Source: Oscillospiraceae bacterium
GTDB taxonomy: Bacteria; Bacillota; Clostridia; Saccharofermentanales; Saccharofermentanaceae
DNA length: 32,058 nt
Reading direction: 5' to 3'
Assembly (NCBI GenBank): GCA_902794115.1
Contig: CADBGD010000066.1
Span: forward strand, 1 to 32,058
This document shows positions 22,373-28,725 of this stretch, piece after piece. Numbering within the stretch: the first letter of the stretch is position 1; each line of letters opens with the position of its first letter. The notes beneath the pieces were generated by a model, which saw only the letters and a list, made by a program, of their open reading frames with translations, was not told where the DNA came from and did no database searches. A program made the position numbers and the translations under genes.

Positions 22373-23455
22373 ATGAAATTCGATCAGTTCGTAAAAGATA
22401 TTCAGGACAATAACTGGAATGTATTCGGCGCGGAAGTGTATGAAAACGGCGAGCTGACGCACAGTTTCGGAGACACGTCGGGCCTTCACGAGATCTACTC
22501 GGCGACGAAGACGGTGCTGTCGGTTGCGGTCGGGATCCTCTTTGATGAGGGTCGCATCGATCTGGACAACTCGATCCTGGAATATCTTCCCCGCGAAAAG
22601 CACTTGTCTCTTTCGGAAAAGCAGAAGGCGCAGTGGGAAAAGATCAGTCTCCGCCGGCTCCTGACCATGTCCGTTTCCGATCTTCCGTTCCGGGCGGAAG
22701 GAGAGAACTGGCTGGATTTCTCACTGGCGTGCGAGATAGAAGATCCGGAAAAGAGTACATTTAACTATAGTAATATCTCGGCGTACCTGATCGGTGTGGC
22801 GCTGACGGAAGCACTCGGTAGCGACCTGGGTGCATTTATCGAGGAGAGGATCTTTCAGCCCCTGGAGATCACTTCTTTCGAATACGGCAGATCTCCGGAG
22901 GGGTATTTCTACGGCGCTTCGATGATGCGCCTTTCCGTTCATGACTTAAGTAAGATCGGGCTGCTCCTTTATAACGGGGGCGTGTATAACGGCGTCCGTA
23001 TCCTTTCCGAAGAATATGTGGATATGGCCACTTCCGTGCAGCAGATGAATAGAGAAGGCGGGTACGGTTTCTTTATCTGGAAGTATAGAGGCGGCTTCAG
23101 CATTAACGGCAAGTGGAAGCAGAAATGCTATGTCCTGCCGAAGAAAGGTGTTATCGTGACCTATCTTTCGCACATCGAAGATGATTCCCACGATCTTCTG
23201 GAAAGCATGGAGAAGAATATTCTCGGCATCGGACCTAAGGAGAGAAATGCCTTTCAGCGGATCGCGGAAATGGAAGAGATCTTCGAAAGAGTCACATCCG
23301 GGAAGGGATCTTCTGAGGATCTGAAAGTACTGGAAAAATATTACACCAGTGCGGATTGGAAGAAGGACTTTGCCCTTGACGAAGCAGGATTACTTCCTGC
23401 AGGTCTGAAACGCGGCGTCCTGTCCGAAGATGGGATCTACAATCTTCTTTCGTAG
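22373..23455 (+). CDS. Beta-lactamase-fold serine hydrolase fused to a DUF4298 domain
   Basis: 360 residues. Residues ~1-285 are a class C beta-lactamase/esterase domain with S43-A-T-K46 and Y132-S-N134, 'MRLSVHDLSKIGLLLYNGG', and 'GGYGFFIWK'; the third K/H-x-G motif is not clear (around 'INGKWKQK'). Residues ~290-360 match DUF4298: 'RIAEMEEIFERV', then 'LEKYYTSADWKKDFALDEAG' and L-P-A-G-L-K-R-G-V-L-S-E-D-G-I-Y-N-L-L. DUF4298 is usually a separate ~90-residue protein. No signal peptide is present, so a cytoplasmic esterase or amidase is more likely than a lactamase. GAGGAG precedes the ATG and a terminator follows. Confidence 0.85.
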   Translation: MKFDQFVKDIQDNNWNVFGAEVYENGELTHSFGDTSGLHEIYSATKTVLSVAVGILFDEGRIDLDNSILEYLPREKHLSLSEKQKAQWEKISLRRLLTMSVSDLPFRAEGENWLDFSLACEIEDPEKSTFNYSNISAYLIGVALTEALGSDLGAFIEERIFQPLEITSFEYGRSPEGYFYGASMMRLSVHDLSKIGLLLYNGGVYNGVRILSEEYVDMATSVQQMNREGGYGFFIWKYRGGFSINGKWKQKCYVLPKKGVIVTYLSHIEDDSHDLLESMEKNILGIGPKERNAFQRIAEMEEIFERVTSGKGSSEDLKVLEKYYTSADWKKDFALDEAGLLPAGLKRGVLSEDGIYNLLS

Positions 23456-23514: not shown

Positions 23515-23729
23515 GTATTCTTTTCCGCTTCTTAAGTAACTACCTCGCGCATAAGGCGGCATGGTACCTGGTGGGGGATCTGCGCACACGCACATACGAC
23601 AAACTTGAGCGGATGCATATCGGATATTTTCACGATAAACAGACCGGCGATCTCATGAGCCGAATCGTTAATGACACGAGAGATTTCGAGCTTCTTTATG
23701 CGCATATGAACAATCTGTCAGAGGAGTAA
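23511..23729 (+). pseudogene. Fragment of an ABC exporter transmembrane domain
   Basis: An open stretch of 72 codons without a start reads as the middle of an ABC_membrane domain: 'WYLVGDLRTRTYDKLERMHI', then G-Y-F-H-D-K-Q-T-G-D-L-M-S-R-I-V-N-D-T-R and 'FELLYAHM', ending soon after in a TAA. This is the coupling-helix region of type IV (MsbA-like) exporters. The first helices and the ATPase domain are absent, so the gene is a remnant. It begins within the terminator of the preceding gene, which points to a deletion joining the two. Confidence 0.88.
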
Positions 23730-23739
23730 AGAGAAAAGA

Positions 23740-24300
23740 TCAAGTGGCGTTTTCCTTTTTCGGGAGTCCTCTTACATGCTGAAAAAAGTGTCGGGGAATT
23801 TCTTTCCAAAAGATCAGCAGAGCGCCAAGTCCGGTGAGAAGAAGTGCGAATACGCTTATGATCCGGGGATCCTGATACATGAAGAAAATCTTCGTGAATT
23901 TAAAAGCATCTTCTCCTGCATCCATATATCCGTTCATGTATAGCAGCGGGACGACTGCCCAAACGAGAAACGAACAGGTGTTTATAGTACAGAAAAGAAA
24001 GCAAAAAGCCCGATAGAAGAAGTTCTGAATTTCTTTTTTGTATGTGATTGCGACGATATACGATACGAAAAGAGGAAGCAAAGAACCATTGGCATGAAGC
24101 CATAGAGTACTAAAAAGAGTGTAGTTTCCTCCTTTGTAATTCATATGCGGTCTTGTTGAAAAAAGATCGAATTCAGTGATTTTTGAACCAGAAGCGAGTG
24201 CTACGATGGTGTGTCCGGATTCGTGCAGAAATACATAGAAAAACAGCACGAAAATGACGACAGGAACCATACGCAGTCCTGTCTTGATCCTGCGTTCCAT
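23740..24300 (-). CDS. M50-like membrane protein with HExxH motif
   Basis: 186 residues from the ATG at 24300, chosen because TTTGGAGG lies directly upstream; an earlier frame extension of 21 codons is not supported. TM1 (about 11-29) runs into H26-E27-S-G-H30, the zinc-binding motif of the M50B-like peptidases, followed by 'TIVALASGSKITEF'. 'HANGSLLPLF' resembles the usual G/N-x-x-x-N/L-P region, and two to four more TM helices follow. A site-2-type intramembrane protease or a catalytically silent relative is likely. It is the last gene of an operon with lytTR and a five-TM protein, starting 50 bases after the end of the latter's coding region. Confidence 0.75.
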   Translation of the reverse strand: MERRIKTGLRMVPVVIFVLFFYVFLHESGHTIVALASGSKITEFDLFSTRPHMNYKGGNYTLFSTLWLHANGSLLPLFVSYIVAITYKKEIQNFFYRAFCFLFCTINTCSFLVWAVVPLLYMNGYMDAGEDAFKFTKIFFMYQDPRIISVFALLLTGLGALLIFWKEIPRHFFQHVRGLPKKENAT

Positions 24301-24349
24301 ATTTACCTCCAAAAGAGTGAATTTGTTAAACCGGTGAAATACGAAATTT

Positions 24350-25243
24350 TTACTCTGATGCAACCATTTTTACATCGATATTCTGCTCCCAGCTTCCATC
24401 TTCACCGGTGAAAACGAAGGGGCTGCCTTCGATCGTAAAGTTAGGATCTAAACTCCGGCAGGCTTCTTCAAATTCTTCTTCTGTGCAGTAGTATTCGCTA
24501 TAGATCGTATAGGTGCCTGTTTCCGAAAGCTCGAAATTCATTTCGCATTCTCCGTAGTCACCGGAAGTCCATGCTTCTGCTTTTCCGCTGGGGGCGACGA
24601 TCTTGGTCATGGTAAGGAAACTGTACTTTTCCGAACTGTTTCCCCATTTTATTGTCACATTATAAGATGTGCCTGCCTCGTTATAAAACTCCACACTTGA
24701 ACGGGTGGAATCAAGTTTCCCTTCTTTCATTTCGATTTTGTCCGTATAGGTCAGCCGGGAACGGTCTTTTACGGTTTTTCCATGTAAGCCTAAATAGCCG
24801 GACATTACGGTCAGACCAATGATCAGAACGATACCTCCGCCAAATAATACACTTTTCATAGTCTTATTCATTTTGATCGTTGAAGCGAGAAAATAGACAG
24901 CTCCGAAAACGGCAACGATGAATATCAGATTTGTTCTGTATCTGCTCTCAAGACAAACCAGACTCCTGAAACCGATCACGGCAGTTCCTAAATAGAAGGG
25001 AAGCGCGATCAGTCTTTTGATCCAGTATGGTATTCTTCCGATCTTCTTTGTTTCTTCCAAAGAAAGATACAGCGTGCGGATGATCGTTATGCACAGAAAC
25101 ATCCACGTCAGGACAAAAATATTTCCGGGAGAGAGAGGTCTATTAGTCCTATGCGAAATAAAGGCCATAATAACGATGCACAATGAGAATGCCAAAACAC
25201 AGACGGAAAAGGCTTTTCGGAATGAATTTATAATTCTATCCAT
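24350..25243 (-). CDS. Five-TM membrane protein with large extracellular C-terminal domain, LytTR partner
   Basis: 297 residues. Hydrophobic helices at about 11-29, 41-60, 77-95, 105-122 and 131-150; the positive loops at 61-77 and 123-130 predict N-in/C-out topology. Residues ~155-297 form an acidic, strand-rich outer domain ('SSVEFYNEAGTSYNVTIKWG', 'GKAEAWTSGDYGECEMNFEL', 'TGTYTIYSEYYC'). The N-terminal part is broadly like DUF3021-type proteins that accompany LytTR regulators, but the outer domain is unusual. Its ATG overlaps the lytTR stop by one base (TAATG), so the two are made together. Probably senses an external signal and controls the LytTR protein; inferred. Confidence 0.75.
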   Translation of the reverse strand: MDRIINSFRKAFSVCVLAFSLCIVIMAFISHRTNRPLSPGNIFVLTWMFLCITIIRTLYLSLEETKKIGRIPYWIKRLIALPFYLGTAVIGFRSLVCLESRYRTNLIFIVAVFGAVYFLASTIKMNKTMKSVLFGGGIVLIIGLTVMSGYLGLHGKTVKDRSRLTYTDKIEMKEGKLDSTRSSVEFYNEAGTSYNVTIKWGNSSEKYSFLTMTKIVAPSGKAEAWTSGDYGECEMNFELSETGTYTIYSEYYCTEEEFEEACRSLDPNFTIEGSPFVFTGEDGSWEQNIDVKMVASE

Positions 25244-25695
25244 TATTTGCCCTCCTTCATACCTAAGGCCTTTTTCAGGTTGCTGACGTAGTTTTTCGAA
25301 ACGATAAGATACTCCTGGTTCTTCATTTCGATCCGTACACGTCGCCCTTCTTCCGGCCGGATGTTCGTGATCATTCTCAGGTTTACGACTACTGACTTAG
25401 AGATCCGCACGAAATGATTGCTTTGATAAGTGCTTTCCACTTCATATAGAGTGCTTCTGATCTTAATAAGATCTTTTTCGAGATAGGCAAATACCTTTCC
25501 CTCGATCGCCTCAAAATAAAAGATCCTGGCGACAGGTACCTGACAAAGATCGCCATTTTCTTTCTCACCGACGAGGAAGCTTGCTGCATTTTTGATTCCG
25601 GCGATCAGAGCGTCGACTTCTCTGTCGCGGGTCCGGCAGCGGATCTCCACTTCGGTTTCTTTTACTTCACACTTTTCTTTCACAAACAGCTTCAT
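25243..25695 (-). CDS. Stand-alone LytTR-family DNA-binding regulator
   Basis: 150 residues without a receiver domain. Residues ~50-147 are the LytTR domain: 'QVPVARIFYFEAIEGKVFAY', 'IRSTLYEVESTY', 'FVRISKSVVVNLRMITNIRP' (the signature R-I-x-K-S-x-x-V-N), and 'EYLIVSKNYVSNLKKALGM'. The N-terminal ~45 residues ('VEIRCRTRDREVDALIAGI') are a short regulatory segment as found in LytTR-DUF3021 pairs. GGAG lies 8 bases before the ATG. It heads an operon with a membrane protein and an M50-like protein, and probably autoregulates. Confidence 0.92.
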   Translation of the reverse strand: MKLFVKEKCEVKETEVEIRCRTRDREVDALIAGIKNAASFLVGEKENGDLCQVPVARIFYFEAIEGKVFAYLEKDLIKIRSTLYEVESTYQSNHFVRISKSVVVNLRMITNIRPEEGRRVRIEMKNQEYLIVSKNYVSNLKKALGMKEGK

Positions 25696-25767
25696 GCTTT
25701 TTCTCCATCGGGTAGAGACTAACGATTTTTCTGTCCGGGCTCAACAAAAACGGAACAAGACGGACAT

Positions 25768-25799
25768 TTTGGCGGATAAGAGGTACATCTTCCGCCAAA
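25768..25799. promoter_or_regulatory. 9-bp inverted repeat in the lytTR leader
   Basis: TTTGGCGGA (25768-25776) and TCCGCCAAA (25791-25799) are perfect reverse complements around a 14-base centre. The site lies 73-105 bases upstream of the lytTR start. Without a T-run it is more probably an operator or leader hairpin than a terminator. Confidence 0.45.
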
Positions 25800-26130: not shown

Positions 26131-28725
26131 ATGAGAAAACTGAATAAGCTGCTTGCTGCCACTGTCACTGCGGCAAGTATTTTCCAGTGCGTGGGTAGTG
26201 TTCCCGTAGTGCTGGCGGCCGATGGCGTACCGATCGACAAATCACATTTTCCGGACGATAATTTCAGAGCAGTCATTTCCAGCACATACGATCTGGATGG
26301 AAATGGCTTTATCAGTGATTACGAGGTATCTCGTATCTATAACATCGTCGCGGAAAATAAAGGCATCAGCAGTATCCAAGGTATTGAGTACTTTACAGAG
26401 ATTCGGGGACTCTGGATCAGACAAAACAATATCGCTACTATGGATATCAGCAAGAATAAGAAACTGACCGGTGTCTGGTGTTCTGAAAACAAATTCACTT
26501 CTTTGGATTTCACACCGAACCCGGATATGGTCTGGGTGTATTGCTTTGATTGCCAGCTGACCAGTCTGAATGTCCGCAATAACGAACACATGGCGTATAT
26601 TGAGGCCAGCACCAATGAGAACCTGGGCTCGATCGATGTCTCCCAAAATCCTGAACTGGAACACCTTCTGGTATCTTCCTGCGGTCTGTCCGAACTGGAT
26701 GTCACGCACAACCCGGAACTGGCGCAGCTGGACTGTCAGAAAAACCATCTGAATTCATTGGATCTTTCGAAAAACTATAAGATGAAGCGCCTGGATGTCT
26801 GGGATAATCCGAAGCTTGGAAATACCGTAAAGATCAGCCACATGAAAGATCTGGAATATTATTGCTGCATGAATAATAATGTGACTCAACTGGATGTTAG
26901 CAATAATACTCACCTGATGAAGCTGAACTGCGGACATAACAAGCTCAAGTCTCTGGATCTTTCTCACAATCCGGATCTGGCCTGGCTGCAGTGTGGTGTA
27001 AATGAGATCTCTTCTCTGGACCTTTCGAATAACCCGAAGCTCTATTATTGTCTTTGCTATACAAACCCCTTCACGACCTTGAATATCGGTAATAACAGCC
27101 GCCTTCAGAAGGTATATAAGGATGGTGTCTATGCAGATGAGCCGACAGTATGTCAGGGTTATTCCATGACACTGGATTACGGCGGAAGCCATGAGTATTT
27201 CGATGAGCTCGAGTACTGCCTCTGCGTTGACTATAAGTGCAAAGTCGATACCACTCACGTAAAGGGAAGTGAGTCCTACGACAGCTATCTCGATACCAAT
27301 GACGGTCTTTCCGATTCCGCGGATATGGTGACCAGAAAAGTGGCCATCGCCACATTGTATGAAATGGCCGGAAAGCCGGGTGTCGGCGGATTGAAGACAC
27401 GTTTTACCGATGTCGGCAGCAGCGAGTGGTATGCCGATGCGGTCAAGTGGGGCGAAGCGAACGATATCTGCTTTGGTTACCCGAACATCTGCTCCGATAC
27501 ATTTAAACCCGACGAGTATATCACTCGTGAGGATCTTGCCCTCATGATCCACAGATTCGCCGAGTATAAGGGCTACTCCAGTGCTTATGACTACGGAAGA
27601 ACGGATAATTTTGCAGACTTTACAAAGATCGACTACTACGCGTGGGGTGCCTTTACCTTTGCGATCCAGTGGGAGATATTGAGATCAAATGGTGACTATA
27701 CTTTCCCGCACGGACGAGTGGAATGTGAAGAATTTGAAATGGGTCTGGATACCCTGTTTGAACTCAATGGTGCCCCCAAGACTGCCTATGTAGTTAAGGG
27801 CCCGGGATCCTCTTCCGGTTCCGGCTCGACCACGCCATCTGTGCCGCGTGTTTCCACTGACTATTGTGCTCATGTTCAGAACATTGGCTGGCAGGGCTAT
27901 GTGTACGATGGTGTCACAGCCGGAACAGTCGGTCTGGGACTTCGGGTCGAGGCCTTTACACTCTATCTGGAGACCAGCGGCCAGAACCTTGGTGTCCGCT
28001 ATCGTTCCCATGTTCAGGGTATCGGCTGGCAGAGCTGGGTATCGGACAAGCAGGTTTCCGGTACGACCGGTCAGGGACGCCGTATTGAAGCGGTCCAGAT
28101 CGAACTTACAGGCTCGGCTGCTTCCAACTACGATATCTATTACCGTGTACAGGTGCAGAACAAAGGCTGGATGGGCTGGGTCAAAAACGGTGCCACAGCC
28201 GGTACAACAGGTCAGAGTCTTCGAATGGAAGCCATGCAGATCAAGGTGGTGCCGAAGGGAAGTAAACCGAACTATGTCACCTATAATGCACATGTTCAGA
28301 AAATCGGCTGGCAGTCTAATGTAGCCGATGGTCTCCCGGCAGGTTCGACCGGTCTGGGACTGCGTCTGGAAGCCGTGCATATCAACATCGAAGGACTGGA
28401 GAATGTAAATGTCGAGTACAGGACTCACATCCAGAACTACGGATGGGAGAAGACATGGGTGAAAAACGGCGCCATGTCGGGTACTACAGGAAAGGGATTG
28501 CGGCTTGAGGCCATCGAGATCCGTCTCAGTGGTAAGAATGCGGATAAATACGATATCTACTATCGCACGCACATCCAGAATATCGGATGGACAGACTGGG
28601 CGAAAAATGGTGAATCCTGCGGAAGCGCGGGCTATGGTTACAGAATGGAAGCCATGGAGATCATCATCCTCCCGAAGGCCAACCCGGCTCCGGGAAAAAC
28701 GGCGAAGCCGTTCTATCAAAGGTAA
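26131..28725 (+). CDS. Secreted LRR - SLH - ChW repeat surface protein
   Basis: 864 residues. 1-30: signal peptide ending V-L-A-A. ~34-70: 'PIDKSHFPDDNFRAVIS' and an EF-hand-like D-L-D-G-N-G-F-I-S-D-Y-E loop, the usual cap before clostridial LRRs. ~78-335: about twelve 21-residue leucine-rich repeats of the 'LxxLxCxxNxLxSLDLSxNPx' type. ~395-550: S-layer-homology-like units ('FTDVGSSEWYADAVKWGEAN' with I-T-R-E-D-L-A; 'FADFTKIDYYAWGAFTFAIQ'). ~551-573: Gly/Ser/Pro linker. ~575-850: six ChW repeats (H-V/I-Q-x-x-G-W ... G-T-T-G-x-G-x-R-x-E-A). SLH and ChW modules may bind the wall; LRRs may bind ligands. AAAGGG ribosome site; terminator follows. Confidence 0.92.
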   Translation: MRKLNKLLAATVTAASIFQCVGSVPVVLAADGVPIDKSHFPDDNFRAVISSTYDLDGNGFISDYEVSRIYNIVAENKGISSIQGIEYFTEIRGLWIRQNNIATMDISKNKKLTGVWCSENKFTSLDFTPNPDMVWVYCFDCQLTSLNVRNNEHMAYIEASTNENLGSIDVSQNPELEHLLVSSCGLSELDVTHNPELAQLDCQKNHLNSLDLSKNYKMKRLDVWDNPKLGNTVKISHMKDLEYYCCMNNNVTQLDVSNNTHLMKLNCGHNKLKSLDLSHNPDLAWLQCGVNEISSLDLSNNPKLYYCLCYTNPFTTLNIGNNSRLQKVYKDGVYADEPTVCQGYSMTLDYGGSHEYFDELEYCLCVDYKCKVDTTHVKGSESYDSYLDTNDGLSDSADMVTRKVAIATLYEMAGKPGVGGLKTRFTDVGSSEWYADAVKWGEANDICFGYPNICSDTFKPDEYITREDLALMIHRFAEYKGYSSAYDYGRTDNFADFTKIDYYAWGAFTFAIQWEILRSNGDYTFPHGRVECEEFEMGLDTLFELNGAPKTAYVVKGPGSSSGSGSTTPSVPRVSTDYCAHVQNIGWQGYVYDGVTAGTVGLGLRVEAFTLYLETSGQNLGVRYRSHVQGIGWQSWVSDKQVSGTTGQGRRIEAVQIELTGSAASNYDIYYRVQVQNKGWMGWVKNGATAGTTGQSLRMEAMQIKVVPKGSKPNYVTYNAHVQKIGWQSNVADGLPAGSTGLGLRLEAVHINIEGLENVNVEYRTHIQNYGWEKTWVKNGAMSGTTGKGLRLEAIEIRLSGKNADKYDIYYRTHIQNIGWTDWAKNGESCGSAGYGYRMEAMEIIILPKANPAPGKTAKPFYQR

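Follow-up and report, generated by a model that had tools for sequence, protein, structure and literature searches.

The operon described here most closely resembles the LytTR Regulatory Systems (LRS) of Streptococcus mutans (HdrRM, BrsRM, and SMU_433/434), in which a receiver-less LytTR regulator is followed by a membrane partner, in some cases a DUF3021 protein (PMC6193735). LRS promoters carry 9-bp direct repeats, usually 12 bp apart (11-13) and in many cases lying 10 bp ahead of the -35 element, and deleting the membrane protein of a characterized LRS induces the operon from less than 20-fold to more than 500-fold (PMC6193735). LRS operons can hold further genes, for example ABC transporters, and bacteriocin genes are under HdrR and BrsR control (PMC6193735). 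As of a 2018 survey, LRS were widespread, they had been characterized in one species only, and their signals were not known (PMC6193735).

Membrane proteases are tied to LytTR-type quorum circuits in other systems: the CPBP protease MroQ of agr serves the AgrA (LytTR) circuit by processing AgrD, SkkI acts in immunity (PMC10482373), and the CPBP protease SilX is needed for SilCR signalling in sil (PMC9298176). The partners of MroQ and SilX, however, are histidine kinases and processed peptides, and these systems are neither LRS nor M50. The operon described here adds a membrane protease module to the LRS layout as presented in PMC6193735, which mentions no protease. The literature that we searched, with many subscription papers outside its scope, describes no LRS with an M50 or CPBP protease, nor does it describe the LytTR, DUF3021-like, and CPBP operons that we report below from a sister genus.

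Organization of the operon

The window is a stretch of 32,058 nucleotides, a contig (CADBGD010000066.1) of a fragmented genome of an Oscillospiraceae bacterium (GCA_902794115.1; 210 contigs, 89.6% complete), from a bacterial family represented largely by metagenome assemblies. Among named relatives of this genome, the nearest is RUG14762 (G113), 'Ruminococcaceae bacterium', itself metagenome-assembled. Three minus-strand open reading frames at 23740-25695, singled out earlier in a sequence-only reading of the window, are real: a LytTR regulator, a 297-aa ORF at 24350-25243, and, downstream, a membrane protein with an HESGH motif and a stop at 23740. The regulator (25243-25695, 150 aa, PF04397 E=4.6e-22) has no receiver domain, PF04397 being the only regulator-type Pfam family in its 150 aa, and its end overlaps the start of the 297-aa ORF, as had been read from the sequence. 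The 297-aa ORF consists of five hydrophobic segments followed by 145 acidic residues (27 D/E vs 14 K/R), and a Pfam profile search found no family in it. For the HESGH gene, the most likely start is an ATG at 24300 behind GGAGG, giving 186 aa, and the apparent overlap of its ORF with the one upstream is an effect of a TTG at 24363. The coding features, all on the minus strand, are the following:

25243..25695, minus strand: LytTR DNA-binding regulator, receiver-less, 150 aa (PF04397 E=4.6e-22)
24872..25243, minus strand: 4TM, a DUF3021-like membrane protein, shortened, residues 1-124 of the 297-aa ORF (homologous to separate 151-aa genes in G113, G100, G102, and G091)
24874..24875, minus strand: junction of a 76-bp deletion, giving an in-frame 4TM-ext fusion with loss of the ext ribosome-binding site (DNA alignment of five loci)
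24350..24871, minus strand: ext, a single TM and an external domain of ~145 residues, 173 aa, own ATG kept (separate gene in four relatives, 51-97% identical)
23740..24300, minus strand: M50B-like putative membrane metalloprotease, 186 aa (PF13398 3e-5, below cut-off; homologues above cut-off)
24211..24225, minus strand: HESGH codons, residues 26-30, putative zinc site (invariant HExxH)
23908..23910, minus strand: D131, candidate third zinc ligand ((E/D)D motif in 14/14 homologues)

Judging from the comparison with relatives, the native, ancestral operon is one of four genes, LytTR, 4TM, ext, and the M50B-like putative protease, and the four are packed into a single tight operon, preceded by a promoter-like region that has the LRS repeats. 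The four-gene operon is present in four relatives (G113, G100, G102, and G091) and in more than one chromosomal setting. Across the five operons, LytTR is 75-98% identical (omega 0.09-0.22) and M50B 44-83% identical, and omega is well below 1 for all four genes, indicating purifying selection. Synonymous divergence between the window and G113 is a mosaic (0.04 for LytTR, 0.27 for 4TM, 0.035 for ext, and 0.36 for M50B), which suggests recombination between lineages. Relatives of the operon were not found in viral and plasmid collections, and an antiphage library gave nothing convincing.

Fusion of the 4TM and ext genes

In a search of the family, the 297-aa query splits in two in every close relative, with residues 1-125 and 124-297 falling in two reading frames. 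G113, G100, G102, and G091 each have a 151-aa gene with four TM segments and a 173-179-aa gene with a single TM, overlapping by 8 nt. In the DNA alignment of the five loci, the window is without exactly 76 bp between ACGATC and AAAATGAATAAG; the loss takes the last ~27 codons of 4TM together with the AGGAGAT ahead of the second gene, and the two frames are joined. By this alignment, the 297-aa 'five-TM sensor' consists of two genes that are otherwise separate and that a deletion has joined. The sequence-only reading of a five-TM protein with an external domain describes the ORF of the window correctly, with its five hydrophobic segments and 145 acidic residues, and does not hold for a single ancestral protein, there being two genes in 4/4 relatives.

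The fusion is seen only in the window genome. Its shortened 4TM is without the conserved C-terminal tail TDxMNDAL..KE, which is kept with minor substitutions in all other complete 4TM copies and lies on the cytoplasmic side in the expected topology. Relaxed selection on the shortened 4TM was not supported by an omega analysis. LRS partners are DUF3021 or DUF2154 proteins. The 4TM proteins of the relatives match DUF3021 at 6.6e-5 to 1.6e-3, under the 24.7-bit Pfam cut-off, in which the partner here differs from that of the Streptococcus mutans LRS; the window protein gave no match.

The ext gene occurs in 5/188 genomes of the order with M50B following it in 5/5, a sixth match among the 188 being weak and partial and lying in an unrelated protein of G010. 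Elsewhere in the family, ext is related to ectodomains that other multi-TM proteins carry (G052 and G010, z mostly 7-9). These multi-TM proteins (L039 5391-6473 and L038 4470-5447), which have a C-terminal membrane domain (DUF6773-like in G052), are unrelated to LytTR loci. A PDB profile search with ext gave no significant match, and alignments of two rows, the window and one relative, gave AlphaFold models of ext and M50B that were too poor for use (pLDDT 36 and 47).

The M50B-like protein

The window protein stays below the Pfam cut-offs, with 24.2 bits for PF13398 (cut-off 26) and 21.5 for PF02163 (cut-off 27.2), but two homologues exceed that of PF13398 (G555 at 30.8 and G724 at 28.1), and the best PDB match of the M50B profile is the site-2 protease 3b4r (residues 11-91, E=0.0042). 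The HExxH sits in an N-terminal membrane segment. H26, E27, H30, and D131 are invariant in nine homologues, and HExxH with (E/D)D 98-105 residues after the first His is found in 14/14 M50B homologues, distant Firmicutes included. The histidines and glutamate, whose variation among orthologues had been named in advance as counting against the sequence-only reading, are conserved in all 14. The canonical LDG motif was not found in the translated window protein, and we therefore name it M50B-like, not a canonical site-2 protease. The M50-like assignment of the sequence-only reading, weak on the window protein alone, gains from the homologues that pass PF13398 and from the profile match to 3b4r, and is left without LDG.

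SpoIVFA/SpoIVFB of Bacillus subtilis likewise pairs a single-TM protein that has an outside domain with an M50 intramembrane protease. The likeness to ext and M50B is an anatomical resemblance only: there is no LytTR in that pair, and SpoIVFB has the canonical LDG, whereas the M50B-like protein is without it. Three distant M50B homologues (G555, G942, and G724) have their own C-terminal TM and hydrophilic domain, in a layout like that of ext and M50B, which points to protease plus ectodomain as a recurring unit. No homology was detectable between ext and the C-terminal domains in these distant fusions (z<1.6).

Strong M50B matches occur in 6 genomes of the 188 of the order, the sixth being G039. 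That genome shares the chromosomal neighborhood of G091 and has kept M50B alone (L072 4318-5107), with LytTR, 4TM, and ext lost in a deletion that has one edge at a HEPN-like gene and the other where ext ends. Given this orphan gene, M50B may serve outside the LytTR switch.

Promoter repeats

Upstream of the LytTR gene, the following elements were recognized:

25776..25784, minus strand: LytTR direct repeat 1, ACCTCTTAT
25755..25763, minus strand: LytTR direct repeat 2, CCGTCTTGT, at a distance of 12 bp from repeat 1 (29/29 family loci share this spacing)
25739..25744, minus strand: putative -35, TTGAGC, at a distance of 10 bp from repeat 2 (sequence; position conserved in the alignment of five loci)
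25716..25721, minus strand: putative -10, TAGTCT, 17-bp spacer, weak (sequence and alignment; alternative GTTAGT at 15 bp)

Written out, the window has ACCTCTTAT-12-CCGTCTTGT-10-TTGAGC at 25739-25784 on the minus strand. Across these elements the five operons can be aligned, and DNA farther upstream does not align. A generic promoter scan did not report the -10. When repeat pairs were scored against NCNNCTTRT, 29/29 family loci had two repeats separated by 12 bp that together matched at 11 or more of 12 positions, other spacings within 8-16 bp seldom scored 11, and a score of 12 of 12 was reached by 0 of 4000 shuffled stretches. Repeats of 9 bp with a 12-bp spacer just upstream of the -35 are also the layout of the LRS of Streptococcus mutans (PMC6193735), and this layout is the strongest evidence, at the level of sequence, for an autoregulated LRS. 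Together with the gene order and the DUF3021-like partner, the repeats fit the comparison drawn earlier with LytTR and membrane inhibitor pairs of the HdrRM/BrsRM type.

An exact scan for the repeat pattern in five genomes returned the operon promoters of three relatives and matches at about the control rate; the window's own repeat site has one mismatch to the exact scan pattern, and a degenerate regulon could escape such a scan. An inverted repeat, TTTGGCGGA...TCCGCCAAA, lies around the upstream LytTR repeat (window 25768-25799, minus strand). It is present in the window and G113 only and was therefore not counted as functional.

Census of operons with a membrane protease

A profile search of the bacterial family with the 4TM subfamily gave a census of 29 loci, the strongest result of the analysis, with LytTR directly upstream of an overlapping 4TM gene in 29/29 and a membrane protease downstream in 29/29 (24 CPBP/Rce1-like, directly after 4TM, and 5 ext plus M50B). 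No copy of the 4TM subfamily without a membrane protease was found among the 29 family loci. By comparison, such a protease accompanies none of the remaining LytTR-DUF3021 pairs of this bacterial family (0/10) and none of the 30 top-ranking DUF3021 loci from the class (0/30), which have LytTR upstream in 30/30. Fisher's test within the family gives 1.6e-9 for loci that are related to one another, and in the LytTR tree the M50B and CPBP types fall on two sides of one branch (100/100), so that the census is safely counted as two lineages, each with a protease unrelated to that of the other, and not as 29 independent events. The combination of LytTR, membrane partner, and membrane protease to which the sequence-only reading drew attention is real and not a product of chance, with M50B after ext in 5/5 and a protease in 29/29. 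In the neighborhood survey proposed there, which was to count how often an HExxH membrane protein follows, the outcome named in advance as refuting did not arise: no copy of the 4TM subfamily among the 29 loci is protease-free, although 24/29 carry CPBP, not M50B.

The CPBP operons were first found by aligning 4TM proteins with weak matches from the sister genus, which had LytTR before and CPBP/Rce1 after them. They share with the operon of the window a homologous LytTR and 4TM, the same promoter repeats, and a membrane protease downstream, and differ in that the protease belongs to PF02517, unrelated to M50B, and in having no ext gene. The four CPBP proteases tested score 77.9-84.1 bits for PF02517 (cut-off 22.4), and the CPBP copies keep EExxxR, FxxxH, and HxxxN (by pattern search, plus inspection by eye of four copies that escaped it). 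The LytTR, DUF3021-like, and CPBP/Rce1 operons of the sister genus (L034-L037, L040-L042, and L135-L159) have LRS-type repeats in all cases. The constant presence of a membrane protease in this operon type across the family, of one or the other of two unrelated kinds, suggests a working role for the protease in the system. An LRS branch with such a protease in every copy points to a functional link between membrane proteolysis and these switches.

Proposed mechanism

We put a probability of about 0.5 on a protease-carrying LRS, in which 4TM would restrain LytTR, release would lead to positive autoregulation, and the protease module would be a co-induced output. By analogy with characterized LRS, 4TM would keep LytTR inactive at the membrane until an envelope signal frees it, upon which LytTR would bind the repeats and turn on its own operon. 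The main output would be the membrane protease module: for M50B, ext could act as an outside partner or as a recruiting subunit, and M50B with ext would clear or process an envelope substrate, a job that the CPBP protease would do in the sister operons. We favor a co-induced output over a part of the switch since the core LRS works without a protease and other LRS operons hold extra genes. In the window, the 76-bp deletion deprives 4TM of its conserved cytoplasmic tail and tethers it to ext, so that LytTR would be poorly restrained, and the allele may be partly derepressed, or leaky. From the conservation of the tail, its cytoplasmic side in the expected topology, and its loss in the window, we predict that it contacts or restrains LytTR; a natural deletion would thus indicate which part of a DUF3021-like protein restrains the regulator, and the operon offers a compact, testable system.

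The protease could instead be part of the switch, with M50B (or CPBP) cutting the 4TM inhibitor or ext upon an outside signal and freeing LytTR by regulated intramembrane proteolysis, in line with the mechanism suggested in the sequence-only reading. The co-occurrence of the 4TM subfamily and a membrane protease in 29/29 loci, and the two unrelated protease classes that end the same operon, are in keeping with this idea. S2P-type proteases commonly cut single-pass substrates, and ext, a single-pass protein, is of this substrate class. However, the cytoplasmic stub of ext, at ~6 residues, is too short for a cytoplasmic signal, a swap from M50B to the unrelated CPBP on a shared substrate needs a changed cleavage site, and known LRS switch without a protease (PMC6193735), as presumably do the 40 protease-less LytTR-DUF3021 pairs. 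We consider such cleavage unlikely, and are doubtful also of an LRS branch gated by intramembrane proteolysis to which M50B and CPBP were recruited independently at the same LytTR-4TM switch; a proteolysis-gated branch would, if true, be the first protease-gated LRS. A role in maturing or degrading a small peptide (pheromone or bacteriocin) sensed by 4TM/LytTR, or in immunity like that of SkkI, has precedents in MroQ/AgrD and SkkI (PMC10482373), in SilX (PMC9298176), and in the bacteriocin control by HdrR and BrsR (PMC6193735). We think it quite improbable: no peptide precursor gene was recognized in the operons, where small ORFs were not covered systematically, and, apart from the operon promoters, the exact repeat scan of five genomes returned few matches, roughly as many as the control.

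It is very hard to see LytTR-4TM and ext-M50B as unrelated modules that are neighbors by chance. The persistence of M50B alone in G039 and the absence of LytTR near most distant M50B homologues would agree with that view, but the genes overlap, the arrangement is conserved in several chromosomal settings, and the CPBP operons provide an independent parallel (29/29 vs 0/40). The fused 297-aa protein of the window is a separate matter, and it is possible, if on balance somewhat unlikely, that it has no biological meaning, being either a recent, pseudogene-like deletion in one strain or an assembly error in a MAG, with the operon of the species in the ordinary four-gene form. Its restriction to a single genome, one in 210 contigs and 89.6% complete, fits this account, as does the removal of a nearly invariant 4TM tail along with the ext ribosome-binding site. 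Against it, the frame is preserved (a 1 in 3 chance), as is the ext start codon, and no direct repeat that could cause an assembly collapse flanks the missing 76 bp in the sequence of the relatives, which favors a true deletion over an assembly error. The N-terminal part is also under purifying selection versus all relatives (omega 0.24-0.33), although a very recent deletion would show the same.

Neighboring genes

Next to the operon, the window has a remnant of an ABC transporter gene (23532-23729, plus strand), in which 58 residues are 100% identical to residues 79-136 of an intact 575-aa protein in G100 (L030 8815-10542), and after them come a short tail and a stop. At 22373-23455 (plus strand), a DUF4298 domain is fused to a beta-lactamase-fold hydrolase; RUG14762 has a shorter copy (L029 7598-8467), which stops ahead of the DUF4298 domain. 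The divergent gene at 26131-28725 (plus strand) encodes a secreted protein of 864 aa in which LRR and SLH occur together with several ChW repeats, and it adjoins the LytTR operon in the window and G113, not in G100.
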